Shown here: piece by piece, positions 49,100-53,696 of the stretch
Position numbering within the stretch: position 1 is the first letter of the stretch
How the letters are laid out: every line of letters starts with the position of its first letter
Assembly: GCA_019694735.1 (NCBI GenBank)
Contig: JAIBBJ010000098.1
Span: forward strand, 1-61,253
DNA: 61,253 nucleotides
Reading direction: 5' to 3'
Origin: Gemmatimonadaceae bacterium
Lineage (GTDB): Bacteria; Gemmatimonadota; Gemmatimonadetes; Gemmatimonadales; Gemmatimonadaceae
Notes under the pieces: generated by a model
What the model was told of the DNA's origin: nothing
What the model saw: the letters and a program-made list of their open reading frames with translations, nothing else
Databases searched by the model: none
Made by a program: the position numbers and the translations under genes

Positions 49100-50233
49100 T
49101 CAGATCCCCGTGAAGGCCAGGTCGATCTGCCGCTGCATGGACGCGACCATCTCGGCCGGCATGGGGAACGCGGCCGCGAGCGCCTCAAGCGCAGTCCCGG
49201 TGCCCACGGGCCTGCCGGCCTGCGCGAGGTACCAGCGTGCGTACCGCTCGCCGAGCGCCGCATCCACCTTGGCGACCAGGAGCGCACCGCCGCGCACCAG
49301 CGCGGTGGCCATCAGCTTCGCGCCCATCCCCTCGCGCTGCTGGGCCGGCGTCAGGTGGTCGTTCACCGCGACGGCCGCCACCGGGCTCGCGGCCTCGTGG
49401 ACGAACGTGAAGAGCGCGACCTCCGCCGAGTCGGGGCTCGCGGGCCAGGCCACCGCGTACTGGCTGAGCGAGCGACCCGCCGGCACCGCGCGCCCCTCGC
49501 CGCCCAGCGCCCGCACGAGGAGGAGGTCGCCGTTGGTCTGCTGCGTGTGGTTGAGGTAGGGCTGCAGCGCCGGCCGCCAGCGCGACTGCCAGAGCGAGTC
49601 GAACGCGGCGAAGCCGGCCGTGCGGGCGCGCTGCTCCTCGAGCCACCACGCGTGGTGGAAGCGCGCCTGCTCGTCGGCGAGCACGCGCACGAAGCGCAGC
49701 GCGAACTCGCGGTCCTCCTTCCGCGGGAACTGCTCGGCGAGCACGGCGATCACCTGCTGCACGTCGCGGTTCGACGCCTGGCGCGGGTCGCCCTCCGCCT
49801 TGCGGAAGTACTCGAACGCCTGCTGCATCTCGGGCCACGAGCCGAAGTAGAGTGCGAGGAACTGCGCGCCCTCGAGCACCGGCCGCTGGCGCAGCGACGC
49901 CTGGAGCTGGGACCGCGCCGAGTCGAGGGCGGAGTAGACGCCGCGCCGGTTCTTCTCGATGGTGACATGCTGGGCGTAGTCGCGCGCGAAGAGCGGCACC
50001 GTCGCGGTATCGGTCATCAGCAGGGCGAAACCATGGAGCCAGAGGTCCACGTGCTCCCGCGACTTGACCGGCCACTGCGGGCCGCGCGCGATCGGCCGGA
50101 GCGGCTCGGCCCGCGTCTGCGGGCCGGCGCAGCCGGCGGTGAGGAGCGAGGTGACGAGGGCGGCGGCGAGTCCCGCGCGCCGCGTGGCGGCGCGCGTCAG
50201 GCCTTCCGGCCGCAGGTGACGCAGAACTTCCAT
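49100..50233 (-). CDS. Unrecognised lipoprotein
   Basis: A 377-residue predicted lipoprotein: basic n-region, hydrophobic stretch and lipobox LLTAGC (RRAGLAAALVTSLLTAGCAG). The mature part contains HGFALLMTDTATVPLFARDY, a helical middle, LADEQARFHHAWWLEEQRAR, and FVHEAASPVAAVAVNDHLTPAQ. The HEAASPV block faintly recalls an HExxH-like metalloprotease helix but lacks the second His, so no activity is claimed. ATG 50233 overlaps the end of the upstream zinc-ribbon gene by 37 bases; an earlier in-frame start would overlap more. The gene is co-directional and nearly contiguous with its neighbours from 51893 down to 48307. Confidence 0.75.
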   Translation of the reverse strand: MEVLRHLRPEGLTRAATRRAGLAAALVTSLLTAGCAGPQTRAEPLRPIARGPQWPVKSREHVDLWLHGFALLMTDTATVPLFARDYAQHVTIEKNRRGVYSALDSARSQLQASLRQRPVLEGAQFLALYFGSWPEMQQAFEYFRKAEGDPRQASNRDVQQVIAVLAEQFPRKEDREFALRFVRVLADEQARFHHAWWLEEQRARTAGFAAFDSLWQSRWRPALQPYLNHTQQTNGDLLLVRALGGEGRAVPAGRSLSQYAVAWPASPDSAEVALFTFVHEAASPVAAVAVNDHLTPAQQREGMGAKLMATALVRGGALLVAKVDAALGERYARWYLAQAGRPVGTGTALEALAAAFPMPAEMVASMQRQIDLAFTGI

Positions 50234-51030
50234 CCCGATTCGATCTCCGCGCTGCACCCGGGGCAGCGTCTCACGAGGAGGTTCTGCCCGCAGGCGGGGC
50301 AGAACTTGACCGCGCGCCCCGAGGGGAGCGCCTCCGCACAGTACGGGCAGCCGCCGTCGCCGGTGACGGCGGCCACATGCGTCGCGTCCGCGGCCGTGGT
50401 CCCCGCATACGCGTCGTACGCCTCTTGTAGCGCGCCGTCGGGACGGGGTTCCGTGGGACCGTCATCGGCGGCTGGCGCCGCGGGCCGGCCGCCGGCCGAG
50501 ACCGCCGGCGAGGCGCGCGGCTCGGTCGGGGTGGCGCCCGCGGGCCGTCCGGCGCCGGAGGGCCGCGGCGCCGCCGCGCTCGGCCGTGCGGCGGGCGCGG
50601 CGCCACTCGGCCGGCCGGTGCCCTGCGCAGGCGAGGCCCCGGAGACGCGCTTCACCCCCAGCGGCGTCGGCGGCGTGAGGTCGATCGCCGTGTCACCCGC
50701 GAGCACCTCGGCGGCGGCGGCGGACGAGAGCCGCACCTTCGACTGCGCGTAGGTGCGCACCGCCTGCAGGTCCGGGTTCGTGGACACGAGCTCGGCCTTG
50801 AGGTCGTCCTGCATCAGGTCGTCGCCGTACATCCGGTCGCCCTCCCCGGAGACGAGACGCGTGAGCGCGTGCAGGTAGTCCTCGAGCGTGTCGAGCGCGC
50901 CGTCGCGCCGCGCCGCCGCGTAGGGGGCGAGCGTCTCGAGGATCTCGCCCACCGTCACCGGACGTTCGAGCGCGCCCTGCGCCTGCGCGGCGAGGACGAT
51001 GCGGCGGAAGAGGAGGTCGAAGGCGTCCAT
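50197..51030 (-). CDS. Double zinc-ribbon protein
   Basis: A 277-residue protein in three parts. The N-terminal helical domain (about 1-105; FDLLFRRIVLAAQAQGALERPVTVGEIL, YGDDLMQDDLKAEL) is followed by a Pro/Ala-rich linker (about 120-215). The C-terminus carries two zinc ribbons: CPYC...CPAC and CPGC...CVTC. Such C-terminal double zinc ribbons mediate protein or nucleic acid contacts; the N-terminal domain is not recognised. ATG 51030 is directly followed upstream by the RNase H stop (adjacent bases), indicating one transcriptional unit. Function is unknown. Confidence 0.8.
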   Translation of the reverse strand: MDAFDLLFRRIVLAAQAQGALERPVTVGEILETLAPYAAARRDGALDTLEDYLHALTRLVSGEGDRMYGDDLMQDDLKAELVSTNPDLQAVRTYAQSKVRLSSAAAAEVLAGDTAIDLTPPTPLGVKRVSGASPAQGTGRPSGAAPAARPSAAAPRPSGAGRPAGATPTEPRASPAVSAGGRPAAPAADDGPTEPRPDGALQEAYDAYAGTTAADATHVAAVTGDGGCPYCAEALPSGRAVKFCPACGQNLLVRRCPGCSAEIESGWKFCVTCGRKA

Positions 51031-51675
51031 TCAGCTCCCGGAGGCGGCGCCCGAACGCGTCGGCACGCGCGGCAAAGATGCCGAGGGCGTGAACGCCTCG
51101 CCATCGGGGAACGGCGCGACCTCGCCCTTCGCGCCCCCCTTGGCGCGGCGCGCGGCGAGCCAGGCCTCGAACCCCGAGGGCACCAGCCCGCCCGACTGCG
51201 TCTGCTCGGTGGCGGCCTTCACCGCGAGATCGTTGGCGTACTCGTTCTGCGGATGGCCGGCATGCCCCTTCACCCACTGCCACGAGGCCTCGTGGCCGTG
51301 CACCGAGGCGATCGCGTCGAACCAGAGCGGGAGGTTCTCGATCGCGCCGGTCTTGCGCGTCCAGCCATTGCGCGCCCAGCCGAACACCCAGCCGGTCATC
51401 CCGTCCACGATGTAGCGGGAGTCGGTGGTGAAGCGCACGCTGAAGCGGCCGTCCTTCGCGCCGAGCGCGCGGAACGCCTCGGTGACGGAGCGCAGCGCCA
51501 TGCGGTTGTTGGTCGTCGCCGGCTCGCTGATCCAGAGGTCGCGCCGCGTGATGCGGCCGTCGGCGTGGCGCCACTCGATCAGCACGCCCGCGCCGCCGGG
51601 ATTGGCGCCCTCCTTGCCGTTGCCGAGGCAGGACTCGTCGGCGTACACCGCGACCAGCGGGTGGCGCGCGCTCAT
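51031..51675 (-). CDS. rnhA: Ribonuclease HI family protein with rearranged active-site carboxylates
   Basis: RNase HI fold, 214 residues, expected to cut RNA in RNA-DNA hybrids. The family frame is clear: VYADESCLGN, TTNNRMALRSV, FTTDSRYIVDGMTGWVFGW, RNGWTRKTGAIENLPLWF and WQWVKGHAGHPQNEYANDLA. Compared with E. coli RNase HI, Asp10 and Asp70 are kept (Asp13, Asp85), but Glu48 is Ala60 and Asp134 is Asn148. A new Glu14 follows Asp13 (DES instead of DGS), and a 4-residue insertion follows CLGN. I recall DESCLGN-type homologues in other phyla, so this looks like a real subgroup. The C-terminal 55 residues are a low-complexity extension. The start overlaps the preceding small gene (ATGA). Confidence 0.85.
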   Translation of the reverse strand: MSARHPLVAVYADESCLGNGKEGANPGGAGVLIEWRHADGRITRRDLWISEPATTNNRMALRSVTEAFRALGAKDGRFSVRFTTDSRYIVDGMTGWVFGWARNGWTRKTGAIENLPLWFDAIASVHGHEASWQWVKGHAGHPQNEYANDLAVKAATEQTQSGGLVPSGFEAWLAARRAKGGAKGEVAPFPDGEAFTPSASLPRVPTRSGAASGS

Positions 51676-51893
51676 CGGGGCACCACGTCGAGCGCGTCCA
51701 CCTCATCGAGGCGGATCGTGAGTCTGGCGCCCGTGGTCGGGTGGCGCGCCAGGATCGCCTCGGCGCGGTCCACCGTGACGAGGCGCTCGGGGATGACGAT
51801 GAACTCCGTGCCGCGGCGGAGGATGGCGACACGGCGCGCGTCCACGATGGCGCGCTCGAGCGCGTCGTACTGCCGGACCGTCAACTGGCCCAC
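51672..51893 (-). CDS. Small unrecognised protein coupled to rnhA (73 aa)
   Basis: A 73-residue protein lying between an M20 peptidase and the RNase HI gene. The sequence QLTVRQYDALERAIVDARRVAI, then RRGTEFIVIPERLVTVDRAE and TTGARLTIRLDEVDALDVV, suggests a small beta-rich domain with an N-terminal helix. It overlaps the M20 stop by 13 bases at GTG 51893 (TTG 51884 is an alternative sharing the M20 stop), and its own stop overlaps the rnhA start (ATGA). The two overlaps argue that it is a real translated gene; its function is unknown. Confidence 0.6.
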   Translation of the reverse strand: MGQLTVRQYDALERAIVDARRVAILRRGTEFIVIPERLVTVDRAEAILARHPTTGARLTIRLDEVDALDVVPR

Positions 51894-53138: not shown

Positions 53139-53365
53139 CTACTTCTTGGGGGCCGGCTTCTTGGCGGCGGGCTTCGCGGCGGGCTTCTTCGCGGCAGGCT
53201 TGGCCGCAGGCTTCGGGGCCGGCTTCGCCGTGGGCTTGGCGGCCGGCTTGGCGGCCGGCTTCGCGGCAGCGGCTGGCGCGGGCTTCGCGGTGGCCGCCGC
53301 TGGCTTCACCGGTGCGGCGGCCGGCTTCGGCGCGAGCGCGATCGCCGCGGCCCCCGGCTTGGGGA
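53139..53365 (-). repeat. Ala/Lys/Pro-coding low-complexity repeat
   Basis: The 3' part of the phasin-like gene is built of degenerate 12-15-base units encoding AAKP/PAAK. Copy number could vary by recombination or slippage. Confidence 0.7.
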
Positions 53366-53696
53366 GCGGCTTGCCCTTGTTCTTCTTGAGCCACGCTTCC
53401 TCGGCCTCGCGGATCAGCTTGTCGGCCTCATCCTGCGTCATCTGGCCGCGGCGGACCATATACTGCACGAGGTCGCGCGCGCTCTCGATCGAGAAGGCGA
53501 TCAGGCCGGCGGCCGCACCGATGACCTCCTTCATCGCGCCGGCCATCTTGGAACCGGCTTCGAGGGAGATCTCGTGGGCCTTGGCGGCCATCTCCGCGAC
53601 GGTGTCGCGGACGTCCTGGCCGCGGTGGCCGGGGTGGCGCTTGGGCGGGGTGGCGGGAGCGGCCGTCTCGGCCGGCTTCGCGGAATCGGGCATCAT
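53139..53696 (-). CDS. Phasin-like protein with histone H1-like Ala/Lys/Pro tail
   Basis: A 185-residue protein in two parts. Residues about 25-105 are helical (ISLEAGSKMAGAMKEVIGAA, then SARDLVQYMVRRGQMTQDEADKLIREAEEAWLKK) and resemble the phasin-type COG3937 pattern of granule-associated proteins, including the RGxMTxDEA turn. Residues about 111-185 are a repeated Ala-Lys-Pro tail (KPAAKPAAKP), like histone H1 and the DNA-binding tail of PhaF. Proteins of this build link polyhydroxyalkanoate granules to the nucleoid. No PHA synthase is in view, so a general nucleoid-binding role is an alternative. A good promoter lies upstream (53765-53738) and a strong hairpin follows. Confidence 0.65.
   Translation of the reverse strand: MMPDSAKPAETAAPATPPKRHPGHRGQDVRDTVAEMAAKAHEISLEAGSKMAGAMKEVIGAAAGLIAFSIESARDLVQYMVRRGQMTQDEADKLIREAEEAWLKKNKGKPLPKPGAAAIALAPKPAAAPVKPAAATAKPAPAAAAKPAAKPAAKPTAKPAPKPAAKPAAKKPAAKPAAKKPAPKK

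Follow-up and report, generated by a model that had tools for sequence, protein, structure and literature searches.

A probable LC9-type RNase HI with a relocated active-site glutamate in a Gemmatimonadaceae bacterium and its relatives in the phylum

The unusual acidic residues of the RNase HI encoded in the window (the whole stretch of 61,253 nucleotides analyzed, contig JAIBBJ010000098.1 of the Gemmatimonadaceae assembly GCA_019694735.1) are explained by an enzyme already described, LC9-RNase H1, from which the arrangement with a moved glutamate is known. Based on its residues, predicted fold, relatives, residue co-occurrence and selection, the protein is very probably a catalytically active type 1 RNase H with a housekeeping role, belonging to the LC9-RNase H1 group, in which Glu14 would replace Glu48 of E. 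coli RNase HI as a metal holder. Its catalysis and metal binding are ones that we infer from what is known of LC9-RNase H1 and the E. coli enzyme.

The rnhA-like gene of the LC9 type was located at 51031..51675 on the minus strand (open reading frame 51675..51031; assigned with the Pfam and PDB matches) and encoded 214 amino acids. The sole Pfam match of the protein was RNase_H (PF00075), with an E value of 9.6e-27 and 94.3 bits against a curated cut-off of 25.8; the RNase_HII domain (PF01351) was not found in it by the Pfam search, and the NCBIfam ribonuclease HI profile gave 120 bits, below the 160-bit cut-off. A single PF00075 gene was found in the window genome (97% complete, 226 contigs), together with one RNase HII gene (PF01351) on contig C33.

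Residue equivalences were obtained by alignment to E. coli K-12 rnhA from NC_000913, and all codons were read on the minus strand of the window sequence. Asp13 (GAC, 51637..51639) corresponded to Asp10 and Asp85 (GAC, 51421..51423) to Asp70, both being metal ligands by analogy, and His138 (CAT, 51262..51264) corresponded to His124. Glu14 (GAG, 51634..51636), the relocated glutamate, stood at the site of Gly11, so that the protein read DES for DGS, while Ala60 (GCG, 51496..51498) occupied the site of Glu48 and Asn148 (AAC, 51232..51234) that of Asp134, where relatives had either Asn or Asp. The loop after CLGN, residues 20-24 (51604..51618), was four residues longer than in E. coli (CLGN-GKEGA-NPGG versus CLGN-P-GPGG, net +4). 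An earlier note on this DNA had called the two replacements, the new glutamate and the four-residue insertion, and codons and alignment bore out all of them. With Ala60 at the Glu48 site and Asn148 at the Asp134 site, the protein falls outside the classical DEDD enzymes, and it carries the residues of the LC9-RNase H1 group (atypical DEDN), namely E14, A60 and N148, in common with chain 4ibn_A.

Sequence search of the PDB returned 4ibn_A first (E 2.6e-85), with chains of E. coli RNase HI next, at E values of 7e-27 or poorer; by entry titles, the E. coli mutants E48A, D134N and E48A/D134N are also in the PDB. The aligned 4ibn_A chain had the same ADESCLGN, TTNNRMA and NEYAN stretches as the window protein, including the Asn at the fourth position. 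The AlphaFold2 model of the window protein, built with 16 homologues, had a mean pLDDT of 92.4 and a pTM of 0.89, and Foldseek placed 4ibn first for this model (E 1.7e-29, TM 0.90, 65% identity). The predicted model thus has the RNase HI fold by its Foldseek matches to 4ibn and to E. coli RNase HI structures. Entry 4ibn, released in 2013, is titled "Crystal structure of LC9-RNase H1, a type 1 RNase H with the type 2 active-site motif".

LC9-RNase H1, which is derived from a metagenome, shares with the window protein the type 1 fold, ADESCLGN with Glu beside the first Asp, TTNNRMA replacing NNRME, the fourth-position Asn, a C-terminal extension and a similar length, at 65-67% identity, whereas about a third of the residues differ. 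Its nearest row was not the window protein but L022 (85%), from another genome of the window's family. On the tree LC9 grouped, with support, with six rows from this family (f1), and such a place inside the family supports common descent of LC9 and the window protein. The second Glu of LC9 reportedly lies on strand 1 beside the first Asp, as in RNase H2. LC9 is also presumably the active enzyme without the DEDD/E motif that came from a compost screen. In that screen (Kanaya et al. 2010), a library made from leaf and branch compost was tested by complementation and yielded twelve genes for type 1 RNases H; one of the enzymes had no DEDD/E motif and yet was active, according to the excerpt of PMC6411959. 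The title of the 2013 paper (Nguyen et al.), as it stands in the reference list of PMC4423430, names an "atypical DEDN active site motif". The novelty of the residue combination, which the earlier note had implied, was therefore not borne out, since the papers concerned date from 2010 and 2013 and the structure 4ibn has been solved.

Among the other known systems, E. coli RNase HI (DEDD) resembles the window protein in the fold (TM about 0.6 by query and 0.8-0.9 by target) and in Asp10, Asp70 and His124, but the window protein differs by Ala for Glu48, Glu for Gly11, Asn for Asp134, the longer CLGN loop and the C-terminal extension. Soybean Rsv4, of the RNase H family with a DEDN motif, likewise has Asn at the fourth position, but the excerpt of PMC6764979 describes only that Asn replaces the last Asp of the DEDD motif, and no moved Glu. 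RNase HII (rnhB, PF01351) is a different family and is encoded by a separate gene in the same genome. The acidic Asp-Glu pair of RNase HII stands at the start of strand 1, which fits the title of 4ibn.

By analogy with these enzymes, the window protein would most likely use the common two-metal mechanism to cleave the RNA strand in RNA/DNA hybrids. Glu48, which normally reaches in from helix A, is absent, and Glu14 on strand 1 would substitute for it, as in RNase HII. The two divalent metals would be held by Asp13, Glu14, Asp85 and Asn148, with His138 probably assisting in the role of His124. In E. coli RNase HI, the D134N mutant keeps activity and the E48A mutant does not. The relocation of Glu might go beyond the layout of the carboxylates and confer an RNase HII-like specificity, that is, 5' junction cleavage at single ribonucleotides, as the type 2 active-site motif cited in the 4ibn title could be taken to mean; we consider this improbable, because the window genome has its own RNase HII and the properties of LC9 are reportedly RNase H1-like otherwise.

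The co-occurrence of the Glu14 gain and the Glu48 loss was examined in the window's phylum, Gemmatimonadota, in which PF00075 was present in 376 of 395 genomes. From these, 127 PF00075 loci were fetched without regard to motif: the 30 best scorers, loci from 34 genomes taken for low scores or rare families (30 + 6 loci), and 60 more sites among the genomes listed, in most cases a single one for each genus, with a few genomes contributing two loci. Glu14 together with a readable position 60 was found in 110 of the 127 loci, and Ala60 was present in all 110. Complete E14+A60 rows came from 108 loci (107 other than that of the window), the remaining two (L145 and L146) being cut before position 148. 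Three loci cut at the N-terminus (L138-L140) had A60+N148, as did L125, which was out of frame at positions 13/14. No readable row among the 127 combined Glu14 with Glu48 or Gly11 with Ala60, so that a DES homologue keeping Glu48, which the earlier note had named as evidence against its reading, was absent from the readable rows of the sample; the co-occurrence that it had proposed to test in DES-type homologues was seen in all 110 of these rows. Seven loci (L150-L152, L215-L218) had no match to the seed profile; by eye, their printed rows read DG with an AEY motif, and in L218, which was partly masked, AEY was visible in the later half only.

The same survey bears on whether the protein has lost catalysis and persists by binding hybrids or in a structural role. 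Compared with E. coli, it lacks two of the four classical carboxylates; however, no readable row among the 120 aligned phylum rows departed from Asp13, Asp85 or His138, the unreadable L125 apart, and a type 1 enzyme lacking the DEDD/E motif is reported to be active in the excerpt of PMC6411959. The gene is also the sole PF00075 gene found in the window genome, and nine pairs of the window gene and close relatives gave dN/dS values of 0.13-0.44 (by a simple counting method, on GC-rich genes), a range that points to purifying selection and is consistent with a maintained function rather than a dead protein. A dead enzyme was rejected on the invariant residues, dN/dS and the Glu14/Ala60 survey, and is very improbable. 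The shifted metal site, which the earlier note had favored over an inactive protein, is supported by the title of 4ibn, the active DEDD/E-less enzyme and the 110/110 co-occurrence. An assembly or sequencing error at the Glu48 and Asp134 codons, for which one could cite that Glu to Ala needs one base (GAG to GCG) and that the genome is a draft of 226 contigs, has practically no chance of being right and was refuted by the homologues and 4ibn, since 107 other complete loci share Ala60 (107) and Asn148 (76) and the solved chain has the same residues.

The classical Gly11/Glu48 pair was found in six phylum rows, four complete (L002, L003, L004 and L147) and two cut (L148 and L149). An exact search for TTNNRME found 3 of 395 genomes, G264, G226 and G165, corresponding to L002, L003 and L004, all with Gly11; exact patterns were not fully sensitive, as TTNNRMA was held by 97 of the 108 complete DE rows. 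These three genes, from family f5, encode N-terminally extended RNase HI of the classical kind. When the three genomes were searched with the alignment of DES-type proteins, no additional copy of that type was found, and their classical gene looks like a replacement of the DES-type gene. The exact ADESCLGN motif was found in 38 of 61 relatives; variants such as HLDESCLGN occur in some lineages, so failure to match the exact motif does not imply that the gene is absent. The 19 of 395 genomes without a PF00075 match gave no match to the window protein either (0/19, in a search without a positive control), and the enzyme may be dispensable in some genomes of the phylum. The match of L046 (G397:C141:66762-67382) to the window protein contained one in-frame TGA, and in L125, a DES-type gene, the 5' part was out of frame in the assembly, by a frame slip or an assembly error.

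In genome_contigs, loci were collected with motif patterns; the 80 best of 375 all read D-E-A-D-H-N, but, being selected by motif and by rank, they are not an independent test of co-occurrence. Among these best 80 of 375, 75 carriers had Gemmatimon- names, the others being one Roseisolibacter, one bin labelled Kuenenia and three others, and the closest named relative of the window protein was a Gemmatimonas phototrophica MAG, at 83%.

The RNase H gene is closely flanked on both sides. Upstream, a small open reading frame (51672..51887, minus strand), of which a part of about 70 residues is conserved and which had no Pfam match, ends with a stop that overlaps the RNase H start (ATGA). Downstream, a gene at 50197..51030 on the minus strand starts directly after the RNase H stop; the N-terminal part of its product is conserved and had no Pfam match, the middle is rich in Pro and Ala, and a double zinc ribbon lies at the C-terminus. 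Both genes were identified from the list of open reading frames and the flank matches, the downstream one also from Pfam. In flanks of up to 1.5 kb, the upstream frame was matched at 80/80 and the downstream gene at 75/80 of the genome_contigs loci (best 80 of 375), these counts meaning presence within the flanks and not exact adjacency. In the motif-free set, the upstream frame was matched at 8/10 loci of f1, 5/9 of f2, 0/1 of f3 and 0/25 of f5, and the downstream N-terminal part at 8/10, 5/9, 1/1 and 0/25 loci, respectively. The gene arrangement was seen inside the order to which the window belongs, and enzymes with the relocated Glu are also encoded where this arrangement is lacking. Elsewhere in the window, the list of open reading frames contained a protein with a long Lys/Ala/Pro repeat tail at 53139-53696 on the minus strand.

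In the viral_contigs search, nine loci were obtained. L113, L114, L116, L117 and L118, which were included in the outgroup, had Gly11/Glu48, and L115 had the same states as L114. For L120 and L121 the script reading of DDEDHD was a misalignment, and by eye they read TDGG with GELEA. L119 was a weak match of 66 bits, cut before the last two sites, and read D-G-V-D, with Gly11 and Val at position 60; having neither Glu48 nor Glu14, it stands outside the Glu14/Ala60 rule and may be degenerate. Matches in 961 phage and 761 plasmid records were all below 60% identity, and residue states were read in eight of them. Two viral proteins, L220 (Erwinia phage Kaldavass) and the viral contig L114, had the classical Gly11/Glu48 with Asn at the Asp134 site, which implied that Asn also arises without relocation of Glu.

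The order of the changes was followed on a tree of 126 rows, consisting of 108 DE/Ala rows, 4 classical phylum rows and 14 classical outgroup rows, which was made by a quick method with the four trait columns left out and carried a long-branch warning for the classical row L147 and several outgroup rows. A single branch (SH-aLRT 99) separated the DG/Glu rows from the DE/Ala rows, and the swap counted as one change. Position 148 behaved differently. Among the 108 complete rows it was Asn in 77 and Asp in 31, and its Asn state took 14 changes on the 126-row tree, of which branches with good support require 8, and 13 on the best tree within the DE/Ala rows alone; such change counts do not separate gain from loss. 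Among the outgroup rows, 2/14 had Asn and 1/14 had His at the fourth position, and since these rows kept Glu48, the fourth-position Asn is not diagnostic of the relocated-Glu group. Raw associations with position 148 were seen before pair counting, for example at positions 11, 87, 91 and 147, but among the associations listed no partner residue tracking Asn/Asp148 was significant when counted on 8 independent pairs over supported branches. The loss of Glu48 and the gain of Glu14 are coupled, as the earlier note had proposed (110/110), but the change of Asp134 to Asn is separate from them, with Asp in 31/108 and 13 changes.

We consider it an evenly balanced question whether Glu moved in a single event, basal to most families in the main class of the phylum, with gain and loss coupled and with no reversal inside the gene in any lineage sampled (the apparent replacement by a classical gene being the only return seen), after which the fourth carboxylate would have become near-neutral, with Asp and Asn interchanging repeatedly. 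The additions made here are the spread across the phylum, the coupling of Glu14 with Ala60, and the exchange of Asn and Asp, which is separate and repeated; none of the three was found in the literature reached, the LC9 papers themselves lying outside that reach.

The moved-Glu enzyme is common across a whole bacterial group, and a published, structurally solved variant of a textbook enzyme was confirmed from sequence alone. The LC9 enzyme, known from metagenome DNA, is placed inside a family with Gemmatimonas-like named members. If the history of a single move is true, the group would be a natural experiment on a two-metal active site rewired without loss of function. The survey supplies 108 complete homologues that have the second carboxylate relocated and variation at the fourth, and with these the sequence of events, the Glu swap first and the reversible Asp/Asn exchange later, becomes testable with few variants.
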